Below are positions 3,676 through 56,000 of a DNA stretch of 64,000 nucleotides, one piece after another. Under the pieces are notes generated by a model. The model ran no database searches and had not been told where the DNA came from. It saw only the letters and a program-made list of their open reading frames with translations. The DNA is from Rhodocaloribacter litoris (GTDB lineage: Bacteria > Bacteroidota > Rhodothermia > Rhodothermales > ISCAR-4553): assembly GCF_011682235.2 (NCBI RefSeq), contig NZ_CP076718.1, positions 1,733,475-1,797,474 of the forward strand, in the 5' to 3' direction. How positions within the stretch are numbered: the stretch's first letter is position 1; each line of letters opens with the position of its first letter. Position numbers and translations under genes: made by a program.

Positions 3676-6600
3676 TTATCGGACCAACATCATCTTGCGC
3701 ACAGCCGAGAAGCTGCCGGCCTCCAGGCGATAGAGGTAGAGACCGGAGGCAGCCGGCGTGCCGGCATCGGTCCGCCCATCCCAGATCACCGTGTGGTAAC
3801 CAGGCTTCTGGGCCGAATCCACGAGCCGTGCGACCTCACGTCCCTGGATGTCATAGACCACCAGGCGGACGTGGACCTCTTCCGGAAGCTGGTACTTGAT
3901 GTTCGTATGGCTCCGGAACGGGTTCGGATAGCTGGTCTCCAGGGCATAGACCTCGGGCACTTCGACGAGTGCCACCGGAGCCAGCTCGGCCGTCGTCTTG
4001 GCGTTGAGGCGCACCGTGCCCTGCAGCCCGTTGACCGTCTTCACATCGCCCTGTGCACGGAAGTGCAGGCGGACGACCTCATCGGCGGCCGGCTGCAGCC
4101 CCGCCATCGCCACACGCAGCACCCGTGCTTCGGCGTCGAAGTGGTGGGCCACCATCCAGCCTTCAGGCAGCGAGGCCTGGATCGCCTCGAACTCCACTTC
4201 CTGCGGCACGGGGATCTCCAGCTCGATGCCGTGCACGTTCTGGGCGGCTTTCAGCGCCACCGGGACGATCGCCACGCCGTTTTCGAACGTGACTTCACCC
4301 CAGGCGGCCTCACCGGCCACGTCGCTCAGACGCACGGCCGTCGTCTTGCCGGAGCCGCCGGCGAGCGCCTGCAGCATCAGCACCACGTCGGCCACATCGA
4401 CCTCGCCGTCGCCGTTGAAGTCGGCCGCAGCCTGCTGCACATCCGTGAGCGTCACCTGGCCGACGATGGCCTGCAGCACCAGCACCACATCGGCCACGTC
4501 GAACGAGGCGTCGCCGTTGACGTCACCCTGGGACAGCCCCACGGCCACTTCGAAGCTGAAGCCGGCCTGCACACCGAGCGAGTCGGTGGCCGTCACCGTG
4601 ATCGTGGCCATGCCGGCCGCCACGGCCGTCACCGTCAGGGTGTCCCCGCTGACCGCAGCCGTGGCAACGGCCTCGTCGCTGCTGGCGGCGGCGAAGGTGA
4701 CCGGCGGCGTGCCGCCGGCGAAGAGACCGCTCAGCGTGGCCGTGCTATCCTCGCCCACGATCAGGGTGATCGTACCGAGCGAGTCGACGGCGACGAGCCC
4801 GGTGTTGACCGTGACCGAGAAGGCCTGCGTGGCCGTGTCGCCCAGGGCGTCGGTGGCCGTCACCGTCACTTCGGCCGTACCGGTGCCGACGCCCGTGACC
4901 GTCAGCGTATCGTTGCTGACCGCCACGGTGGCTACCGTCGTGTCGTTCGAGGCCGCCGAGAAGGCGTAGGGCGCCTTACCACCGGTGAAGTACGTTCCCA
5001 GCGGGGCGACCTGGACCGTCTGGTTCAGGTTGACACCCCGGTTGGCAATCGTACCCTGCGCCACCAGGTCCGCGTTGACGGTGACATCGAGCGTCGTGCT
5101 CGTGCTCACCCCCAGGCGGTCGGTGGCCGTGATCGTGATCGTGGCCGCACCGGCCGCCACGGCCGTCACGACGAGCGTGTCGCCACTCGTGGTCGCCGTC
5201 GCCGCGTCCGCGTTCGACGTGCTCACCACATAGGTGTAGCTCGGCGGAGGCGTCAGGAAGGGCGACCCGCCCATGAAGACGTCCGGCGTCAGCGTGACGT
5301 TCGCCGTCATGCCGGCGTTGAGTTCCACGGCATCCGGCTGCTCGGCCACCAGGTTGGTCTCCAGACCAAAGGTGAAGCGCTGGGTCGTGGTCTCCACGGC
5401 CCCGGAGACGCCTCCGACACGGACCACCGGATGATCGTTCGACGGGCTGGCGTTGAAGTTGTTATACCCGGCCGTACCGGTGATCAGGGCCCACGGGTTC
5501 GCCGTCGAACCGTCGAAGCGGCGGATCAGGCGCGTGTTGTTGACGTCTTCGGCCACGAACTCGTTGTAGCCCTCCGCTTCAAACCGCAGGTCGTACACCA
5601 CGTTGCTCGGCAGCGTCCCGCTGCTCCGCACCAGCCAGTAGAAGCTCGGGTAGCGGTTGATGACGAGGCTGCCATCCATCAGCGGGAAGCCGTTGCTGCC
5701 GGCCGGGTCGCCGTCGAAGTAGCCGGCGAACAGGTGCTGCACGCCGCTGGCCTGCAGCGTCTCGTCGTTCTGGAAGGTGAACACGGCCGGCCGCAGGTGG
5801 GCCACGTCGGCATCGGCATCGTAGGTGCCCAGCGCACCGAACGTCAGCACATAAGCTTCCGCGTTGGTGTCTTCACTACCGGCATCCTCCAGAGGCAGGC
5901 GCACGTTGCCCCGGATGGCCCCCTTGCCCGAGGAGACGTCCACCAGGGCCGCATCGGTGGCGCTGTCAAACGCCGGCGCGATCCAGTTGGTGCTACCCGT
6001 CTGGAGCAGCCCCTTGGTCAGGATGATCGTGTTGACGTCGTTGTCGTTGATGGTCAGGTTGCCCCCCGAGACCATGACGCCGGCCGCGTTGTTGACCTGC
6101 AGGTGAACCGGATCCGGGCTGCCGGAAGCAAACGTCATCCCGGCGGACGGCACCGTGAAGGTCTGCGCCGACGAGCCGGCAAACGCCAGCGTCCCCGGAT
6201 TACCGGCCCCGGCTTCCACGTTGCCTACGCCGATGACCGTGGCATTCCCGGTAACCGTCAGCGTCCGGCTGGCCGACGTGGTGGTGATGTAAACCTCACC
6301 ATTATCCAGGATCAGGTCCCCGACCGTGACATTGGCATCCGGGAGATCAAGCGTGGGGGTACCGGCCACACCGGTGTTCGTGTCTTTCACCGTCAGCGAG
6401 AGGATGTTTGCCGACGTTTTCAACTCCCCACCGGCAACATAGGCCGTACCCACATCATCCGAATACACCAGGTGATAGTCGGTGACGGCGATTTTGTCGT
6501 CGGACGTCTCGCTAAACGAGCCATTATTGGCACGTTCAATCGTACCGCCCGAGGCCACCGTCAACGTGACCGTAGCACCGCCGTTGCTCACAGAAATCGC

Positions 6601-38039: not shown

Positions 38040-41000
38040 TCAACGTAATTTGAACGGAATGGTGAGGGTGAGACGGACCTTCACGGGCCGGCCGCCCAGC
38101 ATTCCCGGCCTGAAGCGGGCCTCCCGCACGACCCGCAGCGCCTCCTCGTCACAGGCCGGGCAGAGCCCCGCCTCCACGACCGGTTCCACCGGCATCCCCT
38201 GCTCGTCCACCACGAGCCGCACCACGACCTCACCCGTGATCCCCTCCCGGGCGACCTCCGGGGGATACCGCAGCTGCCGCAGCAGCATTTCCATGCCGCC
38301 CCTCAGTTCAGGCGGCGTCTCGACCCCGTCGCGGTCGTAGACCGCGTCCGGTGGGCCCGCCGCAGGCGTCCCGCCGTCTCCGGTGGCTCCCCGTGCGGAA
38401 TCCCCCGGCAGGCTCCGCTGCTTCCTTTCGAGGAGTTCGCGGTCGCGTTCGTCCAGCAGGCGCCGTTTCTCCGGTACCGGCGGTGTTTCGTTGCCGCGGT
38501 CGCCTCCGGCTTCGGCCTGCACGGGTGTGACGCGGGCCGTGTCCGCGGCCACCGCGAGCGTATCGGCCGGGCCGGCGAGCGAGTCCGGCATCACGGCCAG
38601 GGTGTCGGTGAAGCCGGCGGGGGCCGCCGTCGTGTCGGGGGCGGGGCGCCGTTCTTCAAGCGCGGCGAGGAGGTGGCGTGCCTGCTCGGCATACGGCGTG
38701 CCGCCATAGCGCCGGCCGATGGTCTGATAAAGCTGTTCGAGCGAGACGGGAAAGGGGCGGGCCGGCGCCGCGTCCATGCCGGTCACCAGGGCCACGTCGG
38801 CCTGGACCAGGCTGTCGGCCGGCGGGTCGGCGGCAGGAAGGGCCAGCCGGTCGTTCCCGGAATCCGGCACGTTACCGCCCTCCCCGCCTTCGGGCACGGC
38901 GGCCCCGGACGGTACCGTGCGCGCGGCCGCCTCCAGGCTGTCCGTGGAAGGCGGGTCCACGAGCCCGGCCTGTTGCAGCAGCCAGCCGGAGACGGACAGG
39001 GGGAGCGGGGCAAACAGGTCGAGGCTGTCGCGGCCGGCCCATTCCATGTAGATCGCACCGGCGGCCAGCAGGGCGCGCGGCGCAACCCCGGTGGCCGCAT
39101 AGGCCCCGGCCGTGCGCACCATCTCGTTGAGGGCCCGTGCATAAGCCCCGCGTTGCCAGGCCTGATAGGCCCGTTCATAGGCTTCCTCGGCCAGGCCGAG
39201 CGAGTCGACGGCCCCCCCGGACGCTTTCGCCAGGCCGAGCCGTTCGCGCACCCGGTCGGCAAAGTCGGAGTTCGGATAGGCGGCGAGCACCTCTTCGTAG
39301 AGGCGACGGGCGGCCCGGTCGTCTCCCAGGGCCCGCTGTACCTCGGCCAGGGCATAGTAGGCACGCTGCGCCACCGGCTGATCGCCGTCCTCTTCGATCA
39401 CCATGCGATACCAGACGGCGGCCGAGTCCGGCCGGTCGATCCCCAGGAAAAGCACGTTGGCCAGTTCATAGCGTGCGATGGCCCGGGCGGCCCGCATACG
39501 GGCCTGCGCGAGGGGATCCCGGGGAACCGCGGAGACATCGATCGGCGGCAGCGTCCCGGCCGCCTCGTCACCGGGCAGGGTTTCGCCCTCTGCGATCACG
39601 GCTTCCGTTTCCGGATCGACGCCCTGGTTCGAGATGGCATCGATCCGTCGCCAGTTGGGCACGCGGGGCCGGTCGCCCCAGCGGCTGATGAAAAGGCTGC
39701 GCGCCTCCTGCAGGCGTACGGGGTCCCGGTGATACAGGAAGCCGGCCTCGCCCCGTTCCTCCGGTGCATTGACACCGGGGACGACTTTCCCGTCCGGCAG
39801 GCCGCTGTTCTGGAAATTGTTCGTTTGCCCGGCGGCGCCTTCCCGGAACCGCTGTTCGATCTGCCGGGCTTCCCGGAGGCGGCGTTGCTGCTCCAGTTCC
39901 CGTGCCCGCTGCCGGCGCAGTTCGAGGATGAAGGCTTCGAACTCCCGGGGCGGCATGCGGCCAAGGGCCAGCAGCGAATCCATCCGGGACACTTCGCGGT
40001 AGACCCGGGCATAGTTTCCAAACTGTTCGCGCAGGGAGGCGGCATCCAGGATCGCCTCGGGGGCAAACGCGGCGGGGTCACGCTCGGTGGCGAGGCCCGT
40101 TCCGCCCCGGCTGGCCGTCGTGCCGCCGGCCGAGCCGAGCGCCACGGCCGCCGAGTCGAAATAGGCGGCGGCACGCACGAAGTCTTCGTAGACGTCGCGG
40201 TGGATCTCGCCGAGGGCATAGTGGATGCGTCCCCGCACCCGGGAGATGTCCAGCGAGCGATCGTCGTTGTAGAGCAGGCCGTGATAGACGGCACGGGCTT
40301 CCTCCGTCCGCCCCATGGCCTGCAGGATGCGCCCGCGCAGGTAGGCCAGGTCGGCGCGGTAGACGTAGTGCTTGTCGTCCCGCTCCATTTTGCGCAGCAG
40401 CTTCAGGGCGCGCTCGCCGTCGCCATAGCGTCCTTCAACCCGGATGGCGCTGTAGCGTGCGGCATAGCCCAGCTCGTAGAGCGGGTTAAACCGGGCCACC
40501 CGTTCGAACGCGGCCACGGCATCGGCATACCGGCCCATCGTCTCATAGACCTGTCCCAGCAGAAACTGGGCCCGCGCGCCGGTGTCACGATCCGGCACGT
40601 GGGCCAGGCCCCGTTCCAGCGCTTCGGCGGCGGCCTCCCAGTCCGCCCGTTTGACGTAGAGCTCGCCGAGGGCCAGGTGGAGCATCGCCGCCCACGCTTG
40701 CTCCAGCCCTTCCCGCACCAGGCTCTCCTGCAGATGGGCGGCGGCCTCGTCGTAGGCCTGGCCGGCGATCAGGGTACGCGCCAGCCAGAAGCGGGCCTCA
40801 TCCTCCAGGTCCGATCCCAGCTCGATCACCTCGCGGAATTTCTGCTCGGCCCCGACGTAGTTCTGCTGGTAGAAGTAGGATTTGCCGATCAGCAGGAGCG
40901 CATCGTCGACCCACTTCGAGCGCGGGTGATCCCGCAGCACGTCGGCGCTTTTCTTGATGGCATCCTCAAAATCCTTCGACTTCGCAGTCCGGCTCGGCTC

Positions 41001-41207
41001 GCTGAAGATGGGCAGGTACCGGTTCCGGTCGACGGGGGTGTCGTTGCGGGAGAGGGATTTGACACCGCGCTCGTAGGCTTTCCGGGCGTTGTAGAACGTG
41101 TTATAATAGGCCGTGAAGTTGTCGAACCGGCGGCCCAGAAACGAGCTGGAGCCACAGCCGGAAAGCACCAGGATCAGGCCCAGCAACAGGAAACGGCGAC
41201 CCAGCAT
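38040..41207 (-). CDS. PorW/SprE-like TPR lipoprotein fused to a TonB C-terminal domain
   Basis: A 1055-residue lipoprotein. The lipobox is LSGC with C18. The following FLGRRFDNFTAYYNTFYNAR and KAYERG resembles the start of SprE/PorW, a T9SS component of Bacteroidota. Tetratricopeptide-like helices run from ~100 to ~780, including SKWVDDALLLIGKSYFYQQN and NYVGAEQKFREVIEL. A Pro/Ala/Asp-rich linker follows. Residues ~965-1055 form a TonB C-terminal domain (GMEMLLRQLRYPPEVAREGI, RFRPGMLGGRPVKVRLTLTI). A start at 41207 gives the lipoprotein signal. The fusion suggests a link between secretion and TonB energy coupling; that role is inferred. Confidence 0.8.
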   Translation of the reverse strand: MLGRRFLLLGLILVLSGCGSSSFLGRRFDNFTAYYNTFYNARKAYERGVKSLSRNDTPVDRNRYLPIFSEPSRTAKSKDFEDAIKKSADVLRDHPRSKWVDDALLLIGKSYFYQQNYVGAEQKFREVIELGSDLEDEARFWLARTLIAGQAYDEAAAHLQESLVREGLEQAWAAMLHLALGELYVKRADWEAAAEALERGLAHVPDRDTGARAQFLLGQVYETMGRYADAVAAFERVARFNPLYELGYAARYSAIRVEGRYGDGERALKLLRKMERDDKHYVYRADLAYLRGRILQAMGRTEEARAVYHGLLYNDDRSLDISRVRGRIHYALGEIHRDVYEDFVRAAAYFDSAAVALGSAGGTTASRGGTGLATERDPAAFAPEAILDAASLREQFGNYARVYREVSRMDSLLALGRMPPREFEAFILELRRQRARELEQQRRLREARQIEQRFREGAAGQTNNFQNSGLPDGKVVPGVNAPEERGEAGFLYHRDPVRLQEARSLFISRWGDRPRVPNWRRIDAISNQGVDPETEAVIAEGETLPGDEAAGTLPPIDVSAVPRDPLAQARMRAARAIARYELANVLFLGIDRPDSAAVWYRMVIEEDGDQPVAQRAYYALAEVQRALGDDRAARRLYEEVLAAYPNSDFADRVRERLGLAKASGGAVDSLGLAEEAYERAYQAWQRGAYARALNEMVRTAGAYAATGVAPRALLAAGAIYMEWAGRDSLDLFAPLPLSVSGWLLQQAGLVDPPSTDSLEAAARTVPSGAAVPEGGEGGNVPDSGNDRLALPAADPPADSLVQADVALVTGMDAAPARPFPVSLEQLYQTIGRRYGGTPYAEQARHLLAALEERRPAPDTTAAPAGFTDTLAVMPDSLAGPADTLAVAADTARVTPVQAEAGGDRGNETPPVPEKRRLLDERDRELLERKQRSLPGDSARGATGDGGTPAAGPPDAVYDRDGVETPPELRGGMEMLLRQLRYPPEVAREGITGEVVVRLVVDEQGMPVEPVVEAGLCPACDEEALRVVREARFRPGMLGGRPVKVRLTLTIPFKLR

Positions 41208-41404
41208 ATCCAGTCGGAGCAGGCAATGAGCGAACGAGCCGGTGGTGCGCGATCCGTCCGGGCGCATGCATGCGACGGCCGTCAGGCCGGAACGGATCTC
41301 CGGAGACACCGGATGGACCCGGCGTGTTACGGGTTGTCCCGGCACGGGGCCGGGCAGGCATCGTATCCGTGCTTCATGCGGCTCGTCGTCCGGCTTCGAA
41401 GGGC

Positions 41405-46228: not shown

Positions 46229-47459
46229 CAGGGCGAGCGCATTCTAAAATAGGCTAGTGTTAATGGCCTGGGATGTCGTAAGCTGTGCCGGTTCGTCAGC
46301 CGTTCCAGTTTGCTCCCCTCCGTTCATGTCTGAGACCTGCTTTATTCGCTATTTTGACCACCTTGAGGACCCCCGACGCGATCAGGGCAAACGCCACCGG
46401 CTCGAGCACGTGCTCGTGATCGCCCTCTGTGCCGTTGTTGCCGGTGCTGAGGGCTGGGATGACATCGCCACGTTCGCCCAGGCCAAAGTCTCCTGGCTGA
46501 CCCAACGGCTCGACCTCAAACATGGCACGCCCTCGGGCGACACCTTCCGCCGCGTCCTGGCCGCCATCTGCCCGGAGGCCTTCGCCCGCGGCTTCGTACG
46601 CTGGGTGGAGGCGCTGGCCCAACAGACGGCCGGCGAGGTCATTGCCATCGATGGCAAGACGCTGCGCCGCAGTTACGACAAAGACGACCCGAAGGCCGCC
46701 CTGCACATGATCTCGGCCTGGGCGTGTGAGCAGCATCTGGTGCTGGCGCAAGAGAAGGTCTCGGCCAAGAGCAATGAGATTACCGCGATTCCGGCGCTTC
46801 TGGAGGTGTTGGACCTCGAAGGCTGCATTGTGACGCTCGATGCGATGGGCACGCAGACCGAGATTGCCGAAGCGATCTGCGCGCAGGGGGCGGACTACGT
46901 GTTGGCCCTGAAGGGCAACCAGGGCCTGCTCCACCGTGAGGTGCGGGCCTACTTCGAGCAGGGGCGCACGCGGCACTGGCGGGCGATGCCGGTCGCCTAC
47001 GCGGAGCGCTGTGACCTGGGGCACGGGCGCAAGGAAGTGCGTCGGCTGTGGATCTCGACCGATGTGGCCTGGGTGCCCAAGGCCGAGGCGTGGCGTGACC
47101 TGAACAGCCTCGTGATGGTCGAACACGAGCGCCACACGCAGCAGGGCGTGAGTCTGGAGCGCCGCTTCTACATCAGCAGCCTCGCGACCACAGCGGAGCA
47201 GATGCTGGATATCATCCGGAGTCACTGGGGCATTGAGAATCAGCTGCACTGGGTGCTCGATGTGGTGTTTCGGGAGGATGAGAGCCGTATTCGGCGCGAT
47301 CACGGGGGGCAGAACATGGCGGTGGTGCGGCAGCTAGCGCTCAACCTGTTGCGCAAGGACGAAACGAAGCGGTTGAGTCTGCGCATGAAGCGAAAACGGG
47401 CCGGTTGGGACGATGCCTTCCTGGCGCAGATCGTCGGAATTTAGAATGCGCTCGCCCTG
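46229..47459 (+). mobile_element. Complete ISAs1-family insertion sequence (1231 bp)
   Basis: Exact 20-bp terminal inverted repeats bound the element: CAGGGCGAGCGCATTC then TAAA at 46229-46248, and its complement at 47440-47459. A 10-bp direct duplication flanks it. It contains one full-length transposase gene whose stop codon is inside the right repeat. Intact ends, intact duplication and an open transposase indicate a fairly recent insertion. It sits in the intergenic region between ypdA and the GH13 gene and interrupts no protein. Confidence 0.95.
46326..47444 (+). CDS. ISAs1 family transposase
   Basis: A 372-residue DDE transposase. The N-terminal DLEDPRRDQGKRHRLEHVL-type region and GDTFRRVLAAICPEAF match ISAs1 proteins. 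Candidate catalytic residues are Asp in VIAIDGKTLRRS, Asp in IVTLDAMGTQTEIA, and Glu in SHWGIENQLHWVLDVVFRED. It is full length with no frameshift. The ATG at 46326 gives MSETCFIRYFDHLEDPRRD; an in-frame extension to 46257 is possible. It catalyses cut-and-paste or copy movement of the element. Confidence 0.95.
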   Translation: MSETCFIRYFDHLEDPRRDQGKRHRLEHVLVIALCAVVAGAEGWDDIATFAQAKVSWLTQRLDLKHGTPSGDTFRRVLAAICPEAFARGFVRWVEALAQQTAGEVIAIDGKTLRRSYDKDDPKAALHMISAWACEQHLVLAQEKVSAKSNEITAIPALLEVLDLEGCIVTLDAMGTQTEIAEAICAQGADYVLALKGNQGLLHREVRAYFEQGRTRHWRAMPVAYAERCDLGHGRKEVRRLWISTDVAWVPKAEAWRDLNSLVMVEHERHTQQGVSLERRFYISSLATTAEQMLDIIRSHWGIENQLHWVLDVVFREDESRIRRDHGGQNMAVVRQLALNLLRKDETKRLSLRMKRKRAGWDDAFLAQIVGI

Positions 47460-53036: not shown

Positions 53037-56000
53037 TCAGAGCAGGTCGAGCTGGATCCGCTTCTTCACGACGGCGAACTTGAGCACCTTTTCCCCGACG
53101 CCCGGCACCTCCACGTGGATGAGGTAGATGCCGCTGGCGATCGGCAGGGCTTCGTCCGTCTGCAGATCCCAGTTGACGAACGTCGTCTCGGGACTGCGTT
53201 TTTCGATCGTCTTGATCAGCGTACCGCTGAGGGTGAAGATGCGGATCGTGGCACGGCCCGGCAGGTTGGTGATGCGTACCACGTCGTTGAGGTTACTGAC
53301 CTCGTAGGTCGAGGCGCCTTTGTAGGGGTTCGGCACGATGGTGATCGCCTCGAGGGCGTTTTCCAGCACCGAGGCCACCCCGCGCTGCGCACCGAAGCCT
53401 TCGGTGCTGAAGGTGAAGACGTCGCCCGGGAGGTTCGGCTTGGTCGTCAGGAAACGCACCACCGTGCCGGCCCCCAGGTCACCCGGATGACGCACGTTCG
53501 GGTCCCCCGTGGCATCGTCGAAGATGATGCGCTGGATCGGACGACCCAGCCCGAAGGCAATCAGATCCTCGATGGCACCGCCCGTCGCGTCGAAGGCGTT
53601 CGGGCAGCCGTTCGGGTCGGCATCGACGAGCGGCTTGACCACCGCTTCGAAGTCCTCATACGTCGTCGTCGGGTAGTACGCATAGACGCGGTCCGTAGCG
53701 CCGTTGGTACCCGAGGCGAAGAAGGGACTGGGCAGCTCACCGTAGGCGAACTCGCACTCGCCTGCGTTGTCCGAGAAGAGGTTCGGGATCATCCGCACGT
53801 CGTCGCTCGGATCGTTCTCCCCGAAGGCCCCGACCGGACCGATGTCCCACACCTCGAACGGCACCCAGATGGCATTGCCGGTGGTGAAGGGATGGTAGGC
53901 ATAGGAGCCCGTCTCGGTGAAGCGGATCTCGAAGTCGTTCGGCGCATAGTTGCCGATCACGGCTTCCGGCCCGGCGCCCTGGTGGTACATGACGTACTGG
54001 CCGGTGCCGTTGAAGGAGGGGTAGAGCCAGTTGCCGCCGACCTCGGCACAGCCGAACGTGGAGACGGCACCCGGGCCGCAGGGGTCGAACCCGCCGGGGC
54101 CGACGATCTCGATGAAGGCCCACTCTTCGGCGCCCGGCTCGATGTCCAGCGGGCCGGGTTCAGGTCCCTGCACGTTGAACGAAAGCCCGTCGGCCGTGAA
54201 GACCGCCCGGCGCTGGGGCGCCGCCTTGCCCGTCCGGGTGATGGCTCCGTTCGGGCCGGTACCGCCGTCGAAGATCTTGTCCGATCCGCGGTAGATGTCG
54301 TAGGTGGTCACCGTCGCGGCCACTTTGGCGGCCGGCAACGGGCGCTGCTGCGCGAGCGGGCCGTTGGCCTCTTCCGGCAGGTCCTCGACCTGCACCGTCC
54401 GCGTCTTGGCGGGCAGTTCGGCGGAGTAGAACTCGACGCGGTACGTGGCATCGACGACGGCCGCCGGGTCGATCACGTCGGCCGAGACGATGCCGCCGCC
54501 TTTTCCGGCGGTGCGTTCGGCCGAGAAGTCCGGCTCGGCGGCACTGGCCACGGCGGCGAGGGCTGCATCGGCCAGCACGGTGCCGCCGTCCCGGGCATCG
54601 ACGCGCGAGGGAACGACCGTCACGGTCGTCATCGGGCTCGGGAAGATCTTGTTGACATCGGTCTCCGGGTCATAGGCGAAGGCCTGCACCCCGAAGTAGT
54701 ATTCGGTGTAGTTGGTCAGGTTGTCCACCTTGAGCGAATGCTGGATGCCGGTGTCGTTGAGGCCCGGCGCGCCGAAGAACGTCAGCCCGTTCGGCAGGGA
54801 CTCCAGCGTGTGCTGTTCCACGACGCCGTTCTGGACGTCGAAGATGGCGATCTGCCGGGCGTCGCTCAGCTTGAACTCGGCCGTCGGGAACTGGTAGACG
54901 CGATACCCCTCGAACGTGTAGGTGCTGCCGAGCGGGTTCTCCGCCTGATAGCTTTCGAGGTAGTTGTTGTCAGTCGGCAGGTTGGTCCACTTCAGGATGA
55001 CCGAACCGTCGAGCTGCGTCACCGAAACGCGCGGGGCATTCGGCGGCGAGGGCAGCTGGAAGTTCGCGTCGAAGGCGGCCTGGGCCAGGGCGTCGGCGTC
55101 GCGCATCTTGGCGACGGAGTCCAGGTTGTCGGCACCGAAGCCGGTCACGATGCCATAGACGATCTCCTGCACGTCGCCGGGGTTCATCGTGAAGGGCCCG
55201 GTGGACATGAGGAAGCGGCGGTCGCTCGGCGGGTTGGGAGTGCCGTTGCCGTCGATGTTGAACTCGCTCCAGTAGGCCTTCGTGACCGGGTCGCCCGGGT
55301 ACATGAAGTTGGCCGTCTGGGCGCAGTTGTTCGGGTTGAAGCCGTTGCCCCCGAAGCACATGCGCGAGCCATCCTGCCAGATCCCCCGGAGGTAATTATA
55401 CCAGTCGGAGGTCAGGTCACGGGGGTTGCCGAACTCGGATGAGTCATTGTTATAGTAGAGGAAGCGCGTCATTTTCAGACGCGTTTTGTTCTCGTGGACG
55501 GTGCCGTCCGGGTCGGTCCACGTCTGCCCCGGCGCATCGACGAGCGGCCCCTGGAAGAAGTCGTAGCCGGTCGCGGGCGGGGCTTCGCCGTAGCCGTCGG
55601 AGCCTTCGTCGTCGTTGTCGGCGTTGTAGACGAAGCCCAGGCCGAGCGTGGTGTCGCTGCCGACGTAGTCGTCGGTGGCGTTGCCGAGGTCGGGGTCGGA
55701 CCAGATGCCGAACCAGGTGTCGGTCATCGGGGCCTTGCCCTTGTAGATGAGCTTGTACTTGTAGAAGGTGGTGTTGCCCAGGTCACCGGCCAGGTTGAAG
55801 GCGAAGGCCGAGACCTGCACTTCCAGGCCCATGGCGGGCGTTCCGGTGGTGCCGTGCGTGTTGCCGACGTCGTTCATGACCCACCAGGCCATCTGGTCGC
55901 CCAGGATGTCCGGGCGGTCCCCGTCGGCGACGTTGTAGACACCGTCGCCGTTGGCGTCGATGAAGGGGGCGCCCAGGTCGGCCGGCCACTCGGCGATGTC

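Follow-up and report, generated by a model that had tools for sequence, protein, structure and literature searches.

Results

A SprE/PorW-family lipoprotein ending in a TonB domain

The window, by which we refer to the whole stretch of 64,000 nucleotides from Rhodocaloribacter litoris that was analysed, contains on its minus strand an open frame at positions 38040-41207, whose product of 1055 amino acids starts with the lipoprotein signal MLGRRFLLLGLILVLSG, followed by C18 and then by GSSSFLGRRFDNFTAYYNTFYNARK. An alternative GTG start at 41345 would lead to a longer frame; since the lipoprotein signal arises from the ATG at 41207, this codon was taken as the start. The gene is organized as follows:

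38040..41207, minus strand: SprE/PorW-family lipoprotein gene with C-terminal TonB domain (1055 amino acids, ATG at 41207, stop codon included)
41154..41207, minus strand: lipoprotein signal peptide, residues 1-18, with the lipobox LSG followed by C, assigned from the sequence (Cys18 is invariant in 38 relatives)
38643..41141, minus strand: SprE TPR core, precursor residues 23-855, delimited by the AlphaFold2 model, the match to 8gl8_I and stretches matching NF052312 (window 40137-41174 and 39051-40034)
38325..38651, minus strand: disordered linker rich in Ala, Pro, Asp and Thr, residues 853-961 (109 amino acids), defined by composition and AlphaFold2 pLDDT
38046..38276, minus strand: TonB C-terminal domain (Pfam TonB_C, residues 978-1054), assigned by Pfam, a six-frame search and the predicted fold

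An initial annotation had likened the N-terminus to SprE/PorW, which is borne out by the curated equivalog model for T9SS PorW/SprE (NCBIfam NF052312, T9SS_PorW_SprE), scoring 303.9 bits (E 2.8e-90) at a cut-off of 250 bits, and by a phmmer search of the PDB, where SprE from F. johnsoniae is the top match (8gl8_I, E 9.8e-19, residues 6-525). The sequence that had been quoted behind the lipid-modified cysteine is found as GSSSFLGRRFDNFTAYYNTFYNARK after C18, the FDNFTAYYNTFYNA motif is present behind the lipobox cysteine, and Cys18, Y35, N40 and A41 are invariant in an alignment of 38 rows. The middle part had been described as tetratricopeptide-like, and several Pfam TPR models indeed match above their cut-off. 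The proposed TonB C-terminal domain in about the last 90 residues (965-1055) was also placed correctly: TonB_C (PF03544) covers residues 978-1054 with 56.6 bits (E 3.6e-15, Pfam gathering cut-off 24.6), and the same location is recovered when the genome is searched in six frames (C1:1771520-1771750, corresponding to window 38046-38276). TonB_C is the sole domain detected by Pfam in this tail, which does not pass the SPOR model PF05036. The domain retains the hallmark residues of TonB (YP, G..V, DEEA and F.PG) and is 46-51% identical to canonical TonBs and 52% identical to the corresponding SprE domain of a sister genus. At the N-terminus, no inner-membrane helix for docking to ExbBD is found; instead, a cleavable lipoprotein signal precedes the SprE core. 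Both the family match and the TonB_C scores are far above chance, and the protein is confirmed as the SprE/PorW of Rhodocaloribacter litoris, a lipoprotein with a TonB C-terminal domain. A chimeric assembly or a frame artefact is ruled out by the single-contig genome (4.50 Mb, 99.9% complete), the intact frame and the presence of the same tail in the sister genus.

The genome holds two further uncommon versions of TonB_C, one in a TonB-like protein where the domain is split in two by an insertion, a pattern that recurs in several relatives (L008/L009, C1:2948634-2948906, plus strand), and one at the end of a 464-residue membrane protein that by eye resembles a BlaR1/M56-type sensor (L002, C1:3946814-3950041). 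About 5 kb from sprE lies an apparent ISAs1-type transposase gene, recognized by eye (window 46257-47444, plus strand).

Predicted structure of the core and the tail

In an AlphaFold2 model of the mature protein, built from 33 sequences, the TPR core and the tail are well predicted and the intervening linker is of low confidence, with a pLDDT of about 27-61 over most of its length and one predicted helix. The predicted core adopts the TPR fold of SprE, with 8gl8 chain I as top match in the PDB (Z 30.2 over 595 residues) followed by an unrelated TPR protein at Z 23.9. Residues 6-838 of the model align with residues 27-755 of F. johnsoniae SprE, which constitute its entire ordered part. Because the modelled core covers the whole of this part and is succeeded by linker and tail, the TonB domain occupies the position of the last 113 residues of F. 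johnsoniae SprE, which are not resolved in that structure. The last 100 residues (956-1055, window 38043-38342), modelled on their own, reach a mean pLDDT of 95.3 and match best the TonB of P. aeruginosa in complex with the receptor FoxA (6i97_D, Z 11.2, rmsd 1.8 over 88 residues), with the TonB domains of N. meningitidis (Z 11.2) and E. coli (Z 10.2) among the other matches. The AlphaFold2 models support both halves of the protein, the predicted SprE core and the predicted TonB C-terminal fold.

Tails of SprE proteins among relatives

The nearest named relatives of the source genome belong to the Rhodothermales, where SprE was found in 40 out of 40 genomes of the order, in 33 of them above the cut-off, and 80 named SprE loci were retrieved for comparison. 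Pfam recognizes SPOR in 18 and TonB_C in 6 of 36 intact Rhodothermales tails, the window included among the latter. By local HMMs, SPOR is found in 54 rows of the 107-row tree set and the TonB_C label was placed on 25, two of which (L163 and L164, family f16), both part of the Balneolales HMM and with tails that look disordered, were relabelled as having none. SprE proteins ending in TonB_C occur in family f1, comprising the window and its sister genus, in family f2 together with its neighbours HDS-18, HKST-UBA127 and Co_bin.317, in family f4, that is UBA2364 and its kin, and in the Balneolales. In the latter, profile comparison relates the SprE tail to TonB_C (hhalign 97%, E 7e-11) and the tail from Aliifodinibius exceeds the Pfam cut-off, the domain being degenerate, with 17-21% identity to that of the window and most TonB consensus residues lost. 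The fusion is thus found in at least four lineages, which excludes a one-off oddity. The sister genus has its SprE gene divided over two contigs, with the C-terminal one starting inside the gene; its tail scores 74 bits for TonB_C and is followed by ftsH, rpsG and fusA in the same order as in the window. This shared tail and gene order argue strongly against a local artefact. Neither of two grounds for dismissing the initial annotation, a lack of similarity to SprE/PorW or a domain combination missing in all relatives, applies, since the protein is a SprE/PorW with a genuine TonB domain and the combination recurs.

SPOR resides at the tail of SprE in Rhodothermus, Roseithermus and Rubrivirga (L132, L057, L106) and in most Rhodothermales loci. 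These proteins share with that of the window the same SprE core and a linker-borne domain at the same place, whereas the domain itself (PF05036) is unrelated in sequence to TonB_C. No recognized domain is found at the tail in Salinibacter and a few others. Only SPOR and TonB_C, both periplasmic modules of the wall or outer membrane, were detected at this site in Rhodothermia. In the published, mainly open-access literature, we found no description of either domain on SprE/PorW.

SprE proteins from Bacteroidia contain a different conserved C-terminal region of about 110 residues (L133-L159), present in many of the 27 loci from outside Rhodothermia, whose likeness to SPOR extends over the full length but is weak (hhalign probability 3%).

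Repeated capture of TonB_C at one site

In a tree of the SprE core, the TonB_C-bearing Rhodothermales appear in three places among the SPOR-bearing ones and separate from the Balneolales. An approximately unbiased (AU) test on a reduced tree of 38 rows rejects a single Rhodothermales TonB_C clade with a p-value of 0.0013, which is weaker than it appears because the tested group was named after the larger tree had been seen. In a tree of the TonB_C domains, weakly resolved with its 85 columns, the SprE domains of f4 nest beside the TonBs of the same family (99/96), the two f1 domains form a group (94/94), those of f2 and of the Balneolales stand apart, and a single origin is found in 0% of 200 bootstrap trees. 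On the grounds of the AU test and the domain tree, a single origin of the fusion is ruled out, and several independent captures of TonB_C on SprE provide the best reading. Homology between TonB_C and SPOR finds no support in hhalign, where it is not detectable (probability 0.1), and we therefore regard their exchange as domain replacement instead of remodelling. The C-terminus of SprE is hence a swappable site in Rhodothermia that carries SPOR, TonB_C or nothing recognized, and the fusion in the window is real, not unique, and the product of one of several captures of TonB_C at this site.

Such exchange might reflect a nearly neutral passenger, where a tail that SprE does not need would gain and lose domains freely, with TonB_C as a common nearby source. 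The variation of tails between lineages, their absence or lack of recognition in Salinibacter and others, and the degeneration of TonB_C in Balneolales would fit this account, as would the dispensability of the tail in F. johnsoniae (PMC10994853). Conversely, the site in Rhodothermia holds two types of domains and not a random mixture, and TonB_C persists across the Balneolales and in both f1 genera, in the latter at 52% identity with intact hallmarks, which suggests selection. We consider a neutral passenger unlikely.

The T9SS of the source genome and its motor

A T9SS is present in the source genome, as evident from SprA (2030 bits) and from the T9SS sorting domain TIGR04183, which is matched 83 times. 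Three such matches are located within the window, at 2445-2651, 3688-3930 and 53100-53333, all on the minus strand and the third marginally above the cut-off, so that T9SS cargo is encoded near sprE. The motor searches, which covered GldL, GldM and GldN, gave no match in the source genome while finding family f2, a result to be read with the possibility of extreme divergence, given that TIGR03513 alone missed divergent GldL. For GldM (TIGR03517), five Bacteroidia control genomes score 262-502 bits and the source genome yields no match. Family f2 and one Balneolales genome contain diverged Gld operons, where GldK, GldM and GldL were assigned by NCBIfam or Pfam, some of them below the cut-off, while GldN was recognized solely from its position and from mutual similarity. 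When 30 Rhodothermales genomes (the source and 29 others) were searched with models derived from these operons, GldL, GldM and GldN were identified in f2 alone. The positive operon loci of this search are:

L197, 5593-8433, minus strand: diverged Gld operon
L198, 6334-9136, minus strand: diverged Gld operon

The canonical motor may thus be lacking in the source genome and in further genomes that encode T9SS cargo, for instance Rhodothermus.

TonB is coupled to ExbBD through an inner-membrane anchor, and a Ton-type motor, either ExbBD-TonB or a heterodimer formed with the C-terminal domain of TonB, could in principle pull on the translocon via the SprE tail and replace the missing GldLM. The source genome contains several tonB genes, and the lack of detectable GldL, GldM and GldN contrasts with its SprA, SprE and numerous sorting domains. 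However, this lack does not track TonB_C: family f2 combines a TonB_C-bearing SprE with a GldKLMN operon, and many genomes with SPOR-tailed SprE are without detectable GldLMN. Moreover, the protein is anchored by a lipid and lacks a transmembrane helix for binding ExbBD. We find such a motor very improbable. More speculative still is the generalization that, in T9SS lineages without the GldLM rotary motor, the C-terminal module of SprE could serve as docking point for a Ton-type motor that powers the translocon.

Discussion

The C-terminus of SprE/PorW is known as a lineage-variable tail (PMC10994853; PMC8754138), and the site of the TonB domain is equivalent to both the dispensable tail in F. 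johnsoniae and the tail of P. gingivalis PorW that binds PorN. The protein of the window resembles F. johnsoniae SprE (8gl8 chain I; PMC10994853) in its equivalog family, its predicted TPR fold over the ordered part, its lipoprotein nature and the presence of SprA in the genome, but it bears a TonB C-terminal domain on a long linker where the last ~113 residues of its counterpart are poorly ordered, dispensable and not recognized as a TonB domain. Neither secretion nor gliding was detectably affected when the F. johnsoniae tail, which was called not conserved, was deleted (PMC10994853), and the TonB domain may thus matter little. PorW from P. gingivalis likewise carries a lineage-specific extension (D6) behind its TPR core, which in contrast to TonB_C is alpha-helical in a model and binds PorN (PMC8754138), a partner (PorN/GldN) undetected in the source genome. 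PorE/PG1058 is comparable as a T9SS-associated TPR lipoprotein with a terminal envelope-binding domain, although its end is OmpA-like and peptidoglycan-binding and it belongs to a different family, as judged from published descriptions (PMC7192894; PMC12204202). With TonB of E. coli and P. aeruginosa, the protein shares the fold and hallmark residues of the C-terminal domain, but it differs in being a lipoprotein, in its TPR scaffold of over 800 residues and in lacking an inner-membrane anchor or ExbBD-binding segment.

As the SprE/PorW of its organism, the protein of the window would probably be a lipoprotein anchored in the outer membrane that, by analogy to F. johnsoniae, forms with its TPR scaffold the periplasmic dish of the type IX translocon around SprA. 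At the end of this scaffold, a TonB domain on a disordered linker of about 109 residues would act as flexible tether or docking arm that most likely holds the translocon to peptidoglycan or to a β-strand segment, resembling a TonB box, of a neighbouring outer-membrane protein. It would be an accessory module, given that most relatives have SPOR in this position and some have no recognized domain, and an energy-transducing role is unlikely for a lipid-anchored protein without inner-membrane anchor or ExbBD-binding helix. We assign a probability of about one half to the TonB tail being such a tether, an accessory module not involved in energy transduction. The repeated capture of small linker-borne domains at one site suits this function, and the best interpretation of a place where SPOR, TonB_C or a PorN-binding tail can be attached through a linker is a tether or docking arm.

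Peptidoglycan binding has reportedly been proposed for TonB C-terminal domains. SPOR domains bind denuded peptidoglycan glycan (PMC6895207). The domain might alternatively bind TonB boxes, either in TonB-dependent receptors or in an outer-membrane protein of the T9SS, and thereby bring the translocon close to receptors and co-localize uptake with the secretion of polymer-degrading enzymes. Its conserved fold and hallmark residues would agree with such a contact, as would the TonB-FoxA complex as best structural match. The identity to canonical TonBs, nearly as high as to the sister SprE, may fit binding of a TonB box as well as a wall tether. However, SPOR, which occupies the site in most Rhodothermales, has no reason to bind receptors, and a tether to the wall or the periplasm in general would therefore explain the site at least as well. 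Additionally, most consensus residues are lost in the Balneolales versions, and no receptor gene is found beside sprE, which is surrounded by what appear to be ftsH, pyruvate kinase and ribosomal genes. We thus hold a tie to receptors to be possible but doubtful. Within the preferred interpretation as tether, the tail of SprE would probably constitute a docking site where a TonB domain was acquired repeatedly, and SPOR in other lineages.

Our results bear on a part of the protein on which views of the T9SS power train differ, since the SprE/PorW C-terminus binds PorN in P. gingivalis and is dispensable in F. johnsoniae. If the lack of GldLMN in T9SS-rich Rhodothermales holds, it would reopen the question of what powers secretion in these organisms. 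The fusion also places a TonB domain outside of TonB, on a putative outer-membrane lipoprotein, and together the TonB and SPOR tails offer natural domain swaps for asking what the translocon must be tied to.
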